From the NCBI GenBank assembly GCA_020200235.1, contig JAIVJC010000140.1, positions 1 through 39,615 of the forward strand: a DNA stretch of 39,615 nucleotides. The letters run 5' to 3'. This DNA comes from Acidobacteriota bacterium. GTDB taxonomy: Bacteria > Acidobacteriota > Blastocatellia > Pyrinomonadales > Pyrinomonadaceae. The position numbers and the translations under genes were made by a program. The notes under the pieces were generated by a model, which saw only the letters and a list, made by a program, of their open reading frames with translations, was not told where the DNA came from and did no database searches. Below, in pieces: positions 4,484-36,748 of this stretch; position 1 is the first letter of the stretch, and each line of letters opens with the position of its first letter.

Positions 4484-4560
4484 GGCGGGGTAGCTCAGCC
4501 GGTTAGAGCATTGGATTCATAACCCAAAGGTCGGGAGTTCGAGTCTCCCCCCCGCTACCA
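4484..4560 (+). tRNA. tRNA-Met(CAT), elongator-like
   Basis: A full cloverleaf is visible. The acceptor GGCGGGG pairs with CCCCGCT (G1-U72 wobble), followed by discriminator A and an encoded CCA. The D arm is GCTC/GAGC, the anticodon loop TTCATAA, and the T arm GGGAG-TTCGAGT-CTCCC. The anticodon stem lacks the three G-C pairs of initiator tRNA, so this is elongator Met. A lysidine-modified Ile tRNA is a less likely alternative. The 31-39 pair is A-C, a mismatch in an otherwise well-paired stem. Confidence 0.93.
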
Positions 4561-12964: not shown

Positions 12965-13057
12965 CGCGACACGCGCGCCCGCCGGGATCGTTCTTCCGAA
13001 AAACTTGACGAACGAAAACGCCTTCAACAACAATCCTCCCACACGGAGGGACCTTTG

Positions 13058-14758
13058 ATGAGACGAAGGACGTTTTTGCGCGGCACGCTCGCGGGCGCGG
13101 CTGTTGCCGTCGCCTCGCCCGCCATCTGCACGCCGCGCGGTGAAGGTGCAACTGATTCGGGTGCGGCGGCGACGCCCGTCAAAGCTTTCGCGCTCGAAGA
13201 GTTGACCATCGCAGAGATGCAGGAGGGGATGCGCTCGGGAAAGTTCACGGCGCGCTCGCTCGTCAAAGATTACCTCGAACGCATCGACGACGTTGACAGG
13301 CAGGGCGCGTCGCTCAACTCCGTCATCGAGACGAACCCCGAGGCGCTCTCGATCGCCGAGACTCTGGATCGCGAGCGCAAGGCGGGTCGCGTGCGCGGCG
13401 CGCTCCACGGCATCCCCGTCCTGATTAAAGACAACATCGACACGGCTGATCGGATGCAGACGACCGCGGGCTCGCTCGCCCTCGTCGGCGCACCAACCCC
13501 GCGCGATGCCTTCATCGCGCAGAAGCTGCGCGAGGCGGGCGCTGTTGTCCTGGGCAAGACGAACCTCAGCGAGTGGGCGAACTTCCGCTCGACCCATTCC
13601 TCGTCGGGGTGGAGCGGGCGCGGCGGTCAGACGAAGAACCCTTACGCGCTCGACCGCAACCCCTGCGGCTCGAGCTCCGGCTCCGGCGCGGCGGCGAGCG
13701 CGAACCTCTGCGCCGCGGCGGTCGGCACCGAGACGGACGGCTCCATCGTCTGCCCCTCTTCGGCGAACTCGCTCGTCGGCATCAAGCCGACCGTCGGTCT
13801 CGTCAGCCGCTCCGGCATCATCCCCATCTCGCACACGCAGGACACGGCGGGTCCGATGGCGCGCACCGTCGCCGACGCCGCCGCGCTGCTCTCAGCGCTC
13901 AGCGGCGTCGATCCGCGCGACCCCGTGACCGCCGCGAGCAGAGGTAAGGCGCAAGCCGACTACACGCGCTTTCTCGACGCGAACGCACTCAAAGGCGCGC
14001 GCGTCGGCGTCGCGCGAAAATACTTCGGCTTCAACGACCGCGTCGACAAGTTGATGGCTGACGCCATCGATGCCCTGAAGCGCGCGGGCGCGACCCTGGT
14101 CGATCCGGCTGACATCCCGACGGGCAGCCAGCTCGACGCGGCGGAGCTTCAGGTCCTGCTCTTCGAGTTCAAAGCCGACTTGAACAAGTACCTCGCCGAG
14201 AGAGGCGCGCCCGCGGGCAGGCGCACGCTCAAGGAGCTGATCAAGTTCAACGAGGAGAACCGCGCGCGAGAGATGCCCTACTTCGGGCAGGAGCTTTTCC
14301 ACCAGGCGGAGGCGAAGGGCGCGCTCACGTCGAAAGACTACCTCGCCGCCGTCGCCAAAAATCACAGGCTCGCGCGCGCGCAAGGGATCGACGCCGTCGC
14401 GCGGAAGTTCCGACTCGACGCCTTCGTCGCGCCCACCGGGGGACCTCCCTGGACGACCGACCTCGTCAACGGCGATCACTTCACCGGCGGCTTCTCGACG
14501 CTCTCGGCGGTCGCGGGCTACCCGCACGTCACCGTCCCGGCGGGGTACGTGCGCGGTCTCCCCGTCGGCATCTCCTTCTTCGGCGCGGCGTACACCGAGC
14601 CGCGACTGATCGCTCTCGCCTACGCCTACGAGCAGGCGACTAAACTTCGCCGCCCGCCGAAATTCCTCCCGCGCGCCGAGCTGAACGCGCAGGAGACTTC
14701 CGGCTTCGACGCCCGCCCGCAGTCGCCGCCGTTGACACGCGTGCGCTGCGGCAGTTAG
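13058..14758 (+). CDS. Tat-exported amidase (amidase-signature family)
   Basis: This is an amide hydrolase of the GatA/AS family. The Lys-cisSer-Ser triad is intact: Lys124 (GIPVLIKDNID), Ser205 (NPCGSSSGSG) and Ser229 (GTETDGSIVCPSS), with the usual 24-residue serine spacing. The N-terminus MRRRTFLRGTLAGAAVAVASPA is a twin-arginine signal, so the enzyme is probably folded in the cytoplasm and exported. A GatA role in Gln-tRNA synthesis is therefore excluded. The substrate is unknown; exported relatives act on peptide or aryl amides. I chose ATG 13058 over TTG 13055 because CGGAGGGA lies at proper spacing and the Tat motif starts there. The -35 box of the next transcription unit lies inside its last codons. 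Confidence 0.93.
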   Translation: MRRRTFLRGTLAGAAVAVASPAICTPRGEGATDSGAAATPVKAFALEELTIAEMQEGMRSGKFTARSLVKDYLERIDDVDRQGASLNSVIETNPEALSIAETLDRERKAGRVRGALHGIPVLIKDNIDTADRMQTTAGSLALVGAPTPRDAFIAQKLREAGAVVLGKTNLSEWANFRSTHSSSGWSGRGGQTKNPYALDRNPCGSSSGSGAAASANLCAAAVGTETDGSIVCPSSANSLVGIKPTVGLVSRSGIIPISHTQDTAGPMARTVADAAALLSALSGVDPRDPVTAASRGKAQADYTRFLDANALKGARVGVARKYFGFNDRVDKLMADAIDALKRAGATLVDPADIPTGSQLDAAELQVLLFEFKADLNKYLAERGAPAGRRTLKELIKFNEENRAREMPYFGQELFHQAEAKGALTSKDYLAAVAKNHRLARAQGIDAVARKFRLDAFVAPTGGPPWTTDLVNGDHFTGGFSTLSAVAGYPHVTVPAGYVRGLPVGISFFGAAYTEPRLIALAYAYEQATKLRRPPKFLPRAELNAQETSGFDARPQSPPLTRVRCGS

Positions 14759-14761
14759 CTT
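14732..14761 (+). promoter_or_regulatory. Candidate promoter for the Tyr leader-phenylalanine hydroxylase unit
   Basis: A perfect -35 TTGACA (14732-14737) lies 18 bases before TAGCTT (14756-14761). The predicted start near 14768 would place the leader-peptide ATG about 38 bases into the transcript. The -10 is weak, and read-through from the amidase gene is possible. Confidence 0.4.
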
Positions 14762-14805
14762 AACGACGGGCGACGCGCTCAGACAGCGCCGCCCTCAGGT
14801 TCGCG

Positions 14806-14907
14806 ATGCGCAACAAGGTCAGCCACAGCGCCCGTTATTACTACTACGCCACGCCCACCACGCGGAGGGGTGAGGCGGCGGGTGGCTGTGCACGCGCGAT
14901 GATCTAG
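14806..14907 (+). CDS. Leader peptide with four consecutive Tyr codons (putative attenuator peptide)
   Basis: This is a 33-codon ORF, ATG 14806 to TAG 14905-14907, preceded by TCAGG six bases upstream. Codons 10-14 read Arg-Tyr-Tyr-Tyr-Tyr (CGT TAT TAC TAC TAC). The peptide begins MRNKVSHSA and continues ATPTTRRG. It sits between a candidate promoter and a strong intrinsic terminator at 14931-14983, directly ahead of the gene for phenylalanine hydroxylase, the enzyme that makes tyrosine. This is the layout of a ribosome-stalling attenuator. Uncharged tRNA-Tyr would stall the ribosome at 14836-14847. That would free 14881-14887 (GGTGGCT) to pair, with one bulge, with AGCCGACC in the terminator's 5' arm. 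Seen: ORF, Tyr run, terminator. Inferred: regulatory mechanism and translation. Confidence 0.75.
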   Translation: MRNKVSHSARYYYYATPTTRRGEAAGGCARAMI

Positions 14908-14930
14908 CGGACGCGGAAACAGTTTTCACC

Positions 14931-14983
14931 GAGCCGACCAACGAACCTTCCGACGCGGGAGATTCGTTGGTCGGCTCTTTTTT
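14931..14983 (+). terminator. Intrinsic terminator of the leader (attenuator)
   Basis: GAGCCGACCAACGAA (14931-14945) pairs perfectly over 15 bases with TTCGTTGGTCGGCTC (14963-14977) around a 17-base loop, followed by TTTTTT (14978-14983). It begins 24 bases after the leader stop codon and ends 36 bases before the phenylalanine hydroxylase start. All transcription of that gene from upstream must therefore pass through it. Confidence 0.92.
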
Positions 14984-15019
14984 GTTCACACCTTGAAAGA
15001 GCAGAGGAGTCCAAACGCC

Positions 15020-15943
15020 ATGAACACGCAAGAGGACAGGGAATTGACGCCGGGCGGGCACAGGCACGATCCGCCGCCGCTCAGCGATCACGCCGACGCA
15101 CGGCCCGTCGCAGCCGGGGCGCAAGAGTCAGCCGTAATTGATCGCGGCTCAATCGTCCAACTCGATCCCGATCATCCCGGCTTCCGCGACGCGGAGTACC
15201 GCGCGCGCCGCAACCGCATCGCGCAGCTCGCGCTCGGACACAGGGCGGGCGAGCCCGCGCCCGACGCGCCCTACACGGAAGAGGAGCACGCGCTGTGGCG
15301 GGCGGTACGCGACGCGCTCGAGCCGCGCCACGCGAGGTTCGCGTGCGCCGAATACCTCGAAGCCGTCAGCCGCCTCGACCTGCCGCGCGGGCGCATCCCG
15401 CAGCTCGAAGAGGTGTCGGAGCGCGTGCGGCGGATCAGCGGCTTCCGCCTGGAGCCGGTCGCGGGCCTGGTCGAGCCGCGCGTCTTCCTCGAATCGCTCG
15501 CCGACGGCGTCTTCCTCTGCACGCAGTACATCCGCCACCACTCGACGCCGCTCTACACGCCCGAGCCCGACGTGGTTCACGAGCTCTTAGGTCACGCCGC
15601 CACGCTCGCGAGCCCGCGCCTCGCCGCGCTCAACCGGCTCTTCGGCGAAGCCGTCAAGCGCGCGCGCGCCGCGGAAGACTTCGAAAGGCTCGCGCGCGTC
15701 TACTGGTTCACCGTCGAGTTCGGCGTCGTGCGCGAGGGCGGCGCGGTCAAAGCCTACGGCACGGGTCTGCTCTCTTCGGCGGGCGAGTTGGAAGCGATGC
15801 GCGACGCGCGACTCCTCCCGCTCGACGCCGACGAGGCGGCGCGCGCCGACTACGACCCGACGCGCTTCCAGCCCACGCTCTTCTGCGCCGACTCGTTCGA
15901 CTCGGTGTGCGAGACGCTCTCCGCGTATCTGACCCGCGCGTGA
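15020..15943 (+). CDS. phhA: Phenylalanine 4-monooxygenase (aromatic amino acid hydroxylase)
   Basis: This is a pterin-dependent non-haem iron enzyme converting phenylalanine and O2 to tyrosine in the cytoplasm. The catalytic-domain motifs are complete. STPLYTPEPDVVHELLGHA gives the iron ligands His187 and His192, and YWFTVEFG gives Glu233. The 307-residue protein has the single-domain bacterial form plus a disordered N-terminal extension of about 40 residues. It lacks the ACT regulatory domain of animal enzymes. ATG 15020 is preceded by AGAGGAGT at nine bases. Expression is probably controlled by the Tyr-codon leader and terminator upstream. That suggests a role in making tyrosine for protein synthesis and not only in phenylalanine breakdown (inference). 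Tyrosine or tryptophan hydroxylase specificity is less likely. Confidence 0.93.
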   Translation: MNTQEDRELTPGGHRHDPPPLSDHADARPVAAGAQESAVIDRGSIVQLDPDHPGFRDAEYRARRNRIAQLALGHRAGEPAPDAPYTEEEHALWRAVRDALEPRHARFACAEYLEAVSRLDLPRGRIPQLEEVSERVRRISGFRLEPVAGLVEPRVFLESLADGVFLCTQYIRHHSTPLYTPEPDVVHELLGHAATLASPRLAALNRLFGEAVKRARAAEDFERLARVYWFTVEFGVVREGGAVKAYGTGLLSSAGELEAMRDARLLPLDADEAARADYDPTRFQPTLFCADSFDSVCETLSAYLTRA

Positions 15944-34854: not shown

Positions 34855-34901
34855 AATGATGGGCCGTGAAGGACTCGAACCTTCGACCCGATGATTAAGA
34901 G
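34855..34901. repeat. Right attachment-site repeat (inside intact tRNA-Lys)
   Basis: Perfect 47-bp partner of 33007-33053. It restores the 3' half of the tRNA after integration. Confidence 0.9.
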
Positions 34902-34932
34902 TCATCTGCTCTACCAACTGAGCTAACGGCCC
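34860..34932 (-). tRNA. tRNA-Lys(CTT)
   Basis: The minus strand folds as a complete tRNA. The acceptor GGGCCGT pairs with ACGGCCC, discriminator A. The D arm is GCTC/GAGC, and the anticodon loop is CTCTTAA with anticodon CTT. The T arm contains GTTCGAGTC. CCA is not encoded. The anticodon-to-3' half is duplicated at 33007-33053. Confidence 0.95.
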
Positions 34933-36675: not shown

Positions 36676-36748
36676 GCGCCTGTAGCTCAGTGGATAGAGC
36701 GCCTGTCTCCGGAACAGGAGGTCGCAAGTTCGATCCTTGCCAGGCGTA
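36676..36748 (+). tRNA. tRNA-Arg(CCG)
   Basis: The acceptor GCGCCTG pairs with CAGGCGT (G1-U72), discriminator A. The D arm is GCTC/GAGC, and the anticodon stem CCTGT/ACAGG holds loop CTCCGGA with anticodon CCG. The T arm is GCAAG-TTCGATC-CTTGC. CCA is not encoded. It reads CGG codons. Confidence 0.95.

Follow-up and report, generated by a model that had tools for sequence, protein, structure and literature searches.

The textbook model of transcription attenuation is that of trp. The trp and his leaders have been modelled (PMC1183508), and trpL and pheL are treated in PMC11802643; in the covered parts of these sources, the trp, his and phe attenuators combine an open reading frame (ORF) with control codons, a protector, an antiterminator and an intrinsic terminator, and have a stop codon near the switch segment. 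A like build, with a putative antiterminator, lies before phhA, the gene for phenylalanine 4-hydroxylase, in the stretch analysed here, a window of 39,615 nucleotides (nt) from an Acidobacteriota bacterium (GCA_020200235.1, contig JAIVJC010000140.1, positions 1-39,615 of the forward strand; "the window" below). Judged from sequence and comparison, this locus is very probably a ribosome-mediated attenuator of transcription that senses tyrosine and governs a biosynthetic phenylalanine 4-hydroxylase. The build is canonical, and the novelty lies in tyrosine as the control amino acid and phhA as the target: unlike the trp, his and phe attenuators, it would respond chiefly to tyrosine, act on the gene of a pterin-dependent hydroxylase and belong to a host among the Acidobacteriota. 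For an attenuator of this kind the amino acid, the target and the phylum all appear to be undescribed.

The C. glutamicum AroR leader (Phe-Tyr-Phe) before aroF is, like ours, an aromatic-codon leader before an aromatic-pathway gene and responds to Phe, not Tyr, according to the covered part of PMC11802643; ours differs in its Tyr runs with almost no Phe and in its gene. Two candidate codon-sensing upstream ORFs found, as here, by comparison, uORFC-8-2 (cysS) and uORFC-13-1 (aroF), differ in using Cys or Phe codons, before other genes and in other phyla (PMC8632094, covered part). Leader-peptide clues have been reported before amino-acid operons of a flavobacterium, the passages concerned giving no gene names (PMC9723704, in part), and in Acidobacteria almost no predicted attenuator has an associated function (PMC2965389, in part). 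The present locus would add tyrosine and Acidobacteriota to leader-peptide attenuation. The Rfam family RF01859 (Phe_leader) is also a leader-peptide attenuator for an aromatic amino acid; its 14.5 bits, on the opposite (minus) strand, stand against a gathering score of 55 bits, and the locus is not a member.

T-boxes bind tRNA directly. One has been described before phenylalanine-4-hydroxylase in the Bacillus cereus group (PMC2494555, covered part); like the present element it is an RNA switch sensing tRNA charging before a phenylalanine hydroxylase (PAH) gene, and here, unlike there, the leader is translated. Rfam gave no match of any family at gathering in the leader region, and no T-box match at gathering over the window or at E up to 10 in 14700-15100. 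The statement in the original prediction that control of this kind had not been described holds for leader-peptide control of phenylalanine hydroxylase, of which the literature searched, with subscription journals thinly covered, gave no description, and has to be qualified by the printed T-box. Its further implication, that the enzyme is an anabolic source of tyrosine, has precedents, since genetic evidence for biosynthetic PAH exists in Dyella japonica, Legionella pneumophila and Echinicola vietnamensis, a Bacteroidota species among them (PMC7311316); there too PAH is the tyrosine source, and the covered part of that report does not deal with regulation. Bacterial phenylalanine hydroxylase is usually classed as catabolic, and a Tyr-codon attenuator would be a readable mark of the biosynthetic version.

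A tyrosine-codon leader and a terminator precede phhA

The leader ORF, its Tyr run, the 15-bp terminator with six U, the TTGACA box and phhA were all confirmed at the places predicted for them. The elements of the locus are as follows.

14836..14847, + strand: four Tyr codons (TAT TAC TAC TAC), codons 11-14 behind Arg at codon 10, the proposed control codons
14806..14907, + strand: leader peptide ORF of 33 codons plus stop (ATG 14806, stop TAG 14905-14907), peptide MRNKVSHSARYYYYATPTTRRGEAAGGCARAMI
14931..14983, + strand: intrinsic terminator, 15-bp stem plus six U, from sequence and conservation
15020..15943, + strand: phhA, phenylalanine 4-hydroxylase, 307 aa, from PF00351, NF008877 and PDB 1phz matches
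14847..14877, + strand: protector hairpin directly behind the Tyr codons, from the minimum-free-energy fold of the window and paired cells in the alignment
14863..14887, + strand: putative antiterminator 5' half (CGGAGGG plus GGTGGCT), the weakest element
14931..14952, + strand: putative antiterminator 3' half, i.e. the terminator 5' arm plus CCUUCC of the terminator loop, from pairing analysis
14732..14737, + strand: -35 box TTGACA, from sequence, inside the end of the amidase gene
14756..14761, + strand: likely -10 box TAGCTT, predicted as part of the conserved promoter pattern and weak taken alone
15005..15009, + strand: AGGAG, likely phhA ribosome binding site, from sequence
13055..14758, + strand: upstream amidase gene (context), PF01425 at 321.6 bits and NF006006 over cut-off, its 3' end overlapping the promoter

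The terminator arms, GAGCCGACCAACGAA (14931-14945) and TTCGTTGGTCGGCTC (14963-14977), form 15 of 15 pairs around a loop of 17 nt and are followed by TTTTTT at 14978-14983. The stem begins 23 nt after the leader stop, and 36 nt separate the U-run from the phhA ATG at 15020. None of 200 dinucleotide shuffles of region 14800-14990 folds as well as the native sequence (z -5.5), and in the window's own minimum-free-energy fold a CAGCCAC segment before the Tyr codons also pairs with GTGGCTG. The gene itself matches PF00351 with 265.3 bits (9e-79), NCBIfam NF008877 (phenylalanine 4-monooxygenase) over cut-off, and PDB 1phz at 9.4e-67 with the HELLGH and VEFG segments retained; HELLGH and EFG are presumably the iron-ligand segments. 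A control-codon run, a match between codon and product, an intrinsic terminator, a protector hairpin and a predicted upstream promoter pattern are present together.

The leader is conserved before one kind of phhA

A search for the phhA protein in 145 relative genomes found matches in 88. We distinguish a close clade (identity of about 62% upwards; 38 loci, L001-L038, in 36 genomes), for which the matching named records are labelled Pyrinomonadaceae, Blastocatellia, Chloracidobacterium or Acidobacteria, from a distant clade (47% or less, with one short fragment at 50%; 52 loci, L039-L090); the phhA fragments G015:C776 and G122:C552 were left out of the fetched loci. A Tyr-rich leader precedes close-clade phhA at 32 of 38 loci, or 32 of the 36 with enough upstream sequence, and at L002 and L005, truncated where their contigs end, the distal half of the leader is still visible. 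The strict pattern of a Tyr-run ORF occurs in 29/36 close upstream regions, against 0/51 distant ones (L066, with 1 nt upstream, being dropped from the 52) and 0/720 shuffles of the close regions; this pattern and that of the promoter were defined after inspection of the leader alignment. One genome with both kinds of phhA (G020) has the leader only at the close-clade copy; in another (G045) the sequence upstream of the distant copy was unreadable.

The predicted tyrosine attenuator gains support from this conservation of Tyr run and hairpin before related phhA genes, and further from what is conserved within the leader. In the 32-locus alignment (A1) the Tyr residues persist, with TAT in some loci and TAC in others at a given position. 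The peptide behind the run is conserved too (YYYYYGPLSxRRDGRAMGC), and in 27 of 32 loci a distance of 20 or 23 nt separates a conserved GCTG segment (column 86) from the stop codon. In the 120 nt before the leader, 31 of 32 loci contain TTGAC-N16-19-TANNNT, against 0.4% of shuffles, which makes a transcript start downstream of 14983, considered in the original prediction as a finding that would speak against it, unlikely. The leader, its choice of codons, the terminator, the promoter pattern, the protector hairpin described below, their conservation and the division of phhA into a leader-bearing kind and one linked to 4-hydroxyphenylpyruvate dioxygenase (HPPD) can all be read in the sequences compared.

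Farther afield, phhA of a Myxococcales-labelled metagenome-assembled genome (L113, 60% identity) has no Tyr leader. A distant-clade phhA of an acidobacterial metagenome-assembled genome (L125) has a Tyr leader (THSYYYGYPYW) and a terminator, and a Tyr leader of the phhA type stands at a contig end (L261) in G005, a genome in which phhA was not found.

Conserved pairings suggest a switch

In the alignment 95.8% of cells are paired in the terminator, against 17-51% in slid versions, and two-sided changes occur in 11 of 12 pairs, so that the stem covaries. In a protector stem directly behind the Tyr codons, defined on A1 and reading CUCUCC/GGAGGG in most loci, 87.2% of cells are paired, slid versions reaching 48-61%, and 6 of 10 pairs show two-sided changes; L021 and L037 carry such changes. 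RNAalifold also places a hairpin at this site, in a different register. An alternative partner for GGAGGGA is UCCUUCC of the terminator loop, with 91.7% of cells paired. Since GGAGGG serves both the protector and the antiterminator, the two exclude each other.

The original prediction proposed as antiterminator a seven-pair, one-bulge helix of GGTGGCT (14881-14887) with AGCCGACC (14932-14939), and did not name the protector at 14847-14877. That pairing is present in the window, but the pairing pattern suggests that the main contact is probably GGAGGG (14864-14869) with CCUUCC (14946-14951), the GGTGGCT helix being a second part. Both helices together have 84.5% of cells paired, against 34-62% slid. 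Shuffling region 2 weakens its duplex with the 5' arm of the terminator (native duplexes have a mean z of -1.3 and lie below -1 at 23 of 32 loci). The antiterminator would nonetheless be the least certain part of the attenuator model.

From these elements we infer ribosome stalling, antiterminator action, read-through and a physiological role, as follows. RNA polymerase would start about 40 nt upstream of the leader ORF with a ribosome following. When Tyr-tRNA is plentiful, the ribosome would clear the four Tyr codons and reach the stop. Upstream RNA (the protector) would then sequester GGAGGG and GGTGGCT, or the terminating ribosome would cover them; in either case the terminator would form and phhA would be off. 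When charged Tyr-tRNA is scarce, the ribosome would stall on the Tyr codons and block the protector pairing, GGAGGG would then bind CCUUCC, the segment next to GGAGGG would bind the terminator 5' arm, and no terminator would form. Transcription of phhA would then allow phenylalanine to be converted to tyrosine.

For each of the 32 loci we folded the transcript truncated ahead of the terminator 3' arm, placing a ribosome footprint on the Tyr codons, one at a time, or at the stop codon. The mean probability that the 5' arm is held by upstream RNA was 0.64 with the ribosome on Tyr, 0.43 at the stop and 0.48 without a ribosome; it was higher on Tyr than at the stop in 26 of 32 loci, and the window's own transcript gave 0.59-0.64 and 0.27. 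The means point in the same direction in all five footprint settings. As a model, the folding is supportive of the attenuator, not uniformly so.

The leader separates two kinds of phhA

HPPD carries out the next step of tyrosine breakdown. It passes the cut-off in 33 of the 36 family genomes with only distant-clade phhA and in 2 of the 34 with only close-clade phhA (p=7e-14, uncorrected for relatedness; G001 and G026, cut at contig ends, counted as leader-bearing). Both genomes with two kinds of phhA also have it, hence 4 of 36 close-clade genomes overall. In 35 of 38 genomes distant-clade phhA has HPPD on its contig at a distance of no more than about 6 kb; close-clade phhA has it as a neighbour in none of 36. 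Because leader-bearing phhA goes with HPPD-poor genomes, gene content indicates that the leader accompanies a biosynthetic phhA, separate from the HPPD-linked one, and this split backs the proposed anabolic role. The leader thereby separates two kinds of phhA within one bacterial family and would offer comparative genomics a handle on tyrosine synthesis without TyrA.

Related leaders stand before other aromatic-pathway genes

A covariance model (R1) was built from the 32 phhA leaders, which match it by construction. It matched 43 of 145 relatives, many matches being opposite-strand echoes of the terminator; a search over the class covered 162 genomes, most of them already examined, and added little. 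We inspected 13 weaker matches, leaving out G117, G106 and G128 (the genus of L268 and L269) and G322. Among these, Phe-rich leaders of like build were found before prephenate dehydratase (L262, L264 and L267) and, at a contig end, before the start of an ORF (L271) that we take to resemble chorismate mutase. L268 and L269 have a Phe/Tyr/Trp leader (FTFSGYWYWWS) before a DAHP-synthase-like gene, named by eye. At L265 the leader of a cysteine-synthase-like gene stands close behind a phhA with its own leader, as if duplicated. Matches L266 and L272 appear to be to terminators without such a leader, and L342 has none either.

Upstream of prephenate dehydratase, an aromatic-rich leader with a terminator is present in 13 of 18 chosen family genomes, one of the 13 (L343) being of another style and one of the five misses having just 273 nt. 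Phe-rich leaders of the same build stand before prephenate dehydratase at L325, L328, L330-L337, L339 and L340. The phhA leaders contain on average 5.41 Tyr and 0.19 Phe (n=32, 27 of them lacking Phe), the Phe-type leaders of relatives 5.69 Phe and 2.69 Tyr (n=16, excluding L271 and L343 and including L341, whose downstream gene was not read). With Phe-rich leaders before prephenate dehydratase and Tyr-rich ones before phhA, control codon and product match; Tyr codons in the Phe-type leaders would be sensible if phenylalanine is the tyrosine precursor.

Related leaders may also point to other genes acting in tyrosine supply. In L260 (1018-1689, minus strand) and L263 (574-1263) a Tyr leader and terminator precede a heme-oxygenase-like protein (PF14518; the two 71% alike), whose nearest solved structures are 4-chloro-allylglycine synthase, CT610 and 4-aminobenzoate synthase; a counterpart of the sacrificial tyrosine of CADD is missing from the corresponding alignment position in L263. 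Neither genome (G094, G130) has a phhA match. G130 (83% complete) has prephenate dehydratase and no phhA, HPPD or TyrA match over cut-off, and G094 has TyrA and HPPD over cut-off. One tentative and rather doubtful idea is that in this Acidobacteriota class the leader family passes from gene to gene by an exchange of its control codons (Tyr before phhA, Phe with Tyr before prephenate dehydratase, and Phe/Tyr/Trp before DAHP synthase), in which case the L260/L263 protein would be an unrecognised, non-orthologous tyrosine-making enzyme.

Counter-evidence and alternative explanations

Several observations count against the attenuator model. An intact leader is absent in 4 of 36 close-clade genomes: L017, L027 and L038 have none, and the decayed leader of L029 keeps the terminator and has lost the Tyr ORF. 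(By eye, the upstream gene in L017 and L027 may be a tryptophan-pathway gene such as trpA.) A generic scan of the locus, with a loop limit of 8 nt and a strict promoter rule, reported no promoter and no terminator on the + strand. The second antiterminator helix (second segment with terminator 5' arm) is 78.3% paired, and cognate region 2 and terminator arms pair no better than swapped ones (p=0.117; 32 loci). Slid versions give 3 to 5 two-sided pairs for the protector (6 observed) and up to 7 for the antiterminator (8 observed), so that the percentage paired is the better argument for both. With a margin of 0.02 in the folding, the preference is for Tyr at 16 to 21 of 32 loci and for the stop at 1 to 6; shuffled controls, in which the protector hairpin to near the stop was shuffled and the last Tyr codon used (the last three for observed values), gave means of 0.42-0.49 in both states with no consistent difference and 10 to 16 loci past the margin. 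As AroR with Phe-Tyr-Phe is reported to answer to Phe but not Tyr, Tyr codons alone are no proof of a Tyr response, and L265 and L270 have Tyr and Cys leaders before a cysteine-synthase-like gene (named by eye). That the hairpin is merely the terminator of the amidase gene and the Tyr ORF a product of chance would fit the position of the leader directly behind that gene, whose end the -35 box overlaps; we regard this as hardly credible, as leader, promoter pattern and terminator travel with phhA across genomes and no shuffle produced such an ORF. Control through the conserved peptide itself, by nascent-peptide arrest or some other signal in place of Tyr-tRNA charging, is improbable: the residues behind the Tyr run are indeed conserved and the two cysteine-synthase leaders retain Tyr codons, but the RNA pairings that this tail encodes account for its conservation, the protector stem shows two-sided changes in L021 and L037, and Phe substitutes most of the Tyr in the prephenate dehydratase (pheA) leaders.

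Further counter-evidence bears on the enzyme, which might be controlled as described and serve something other than tyrosine supply, such as a pigment precursor or a mixed role. The original prediction called for a check that TyrA is absent, with a divided outcome: no PF02153 match over cut-off was found in 29 of 36 close-clade genomes, but 7 of 36 have one, our own included, where a divergent TyrA-like ORF (L095, 1352-2218) has weak PDH_N and PDH_C matches. This ORF sits on a stretch of 42-50% GC beside 63-70% GC, and is perhaps acquired or part of a mixed contig. Mutual exclusion of TyrA and phhA was not found in the family (12/72 phhA-bearing against 5/17 phhA-lacking genomes, p=0.30); as TyrA is scarce elsewhere in the family too, it does not discriminate. 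For 19 of 36 close-clade genomes the search gave no prephenate dehydratase, our own (G000, 88% complete) and G003 (rated 100%) among them. We nevertheless consider such another role unlikely, if less so than a peptide signal, because control by Tyr codons would switch the gene on when tyrosine is short, and because HPPD passes the cut-off in just four close-clade genomes, and two of these have a distant-clade phhA as well. Tyrosine supply under a tyrosine attenuator remains our preferred explanation.

Similar leaders in Bacteroidota, and other observations

Apparent Tyr ORFs before phhA in Burkholderiales (L152, L156) overlap the phhA start out of frame and were rejected. In Bacteroidota, Tyr leaders with terminators precede phhA in L150, L167, L169, L170 and L171; L170 is from Fulvivirga sp. 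M361, and the gene before its leader resembles DAHP synthase by eye. TyrA passes the cut-off in the genomes of these five loci and not in that of L165. A survey of a Bacteroidota order found phhA in 89 of 148 genomes, and 11 of 70 upstream regions examined show a Tyr-run leader with a terminator; among the 11, L180 is L170 again, L191 comes from the genome of L165, and L196 and L197 are nearly alike. The Bacteroidota loci with such a leader and terminator are thus L150, L167, L169, L170, L171, L180-L182, L187, L188, L191, L193, L194, L196, L197 and L225. L184-L186, with merely scattered Tyr and His codons, were rejected; L204, L205, L222 and L223 were left out of the count; and L224 has a hairpin whose U-run is not clear. 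A crude antiterminator duplex test was mixed, with z below -1 in 7 of 17 loci (the 16 Bacteroidota loci and L125).

Elsewhere in the window, three tRNA genes lie at 4484-4557, 34860-34932 and 36676-36748.

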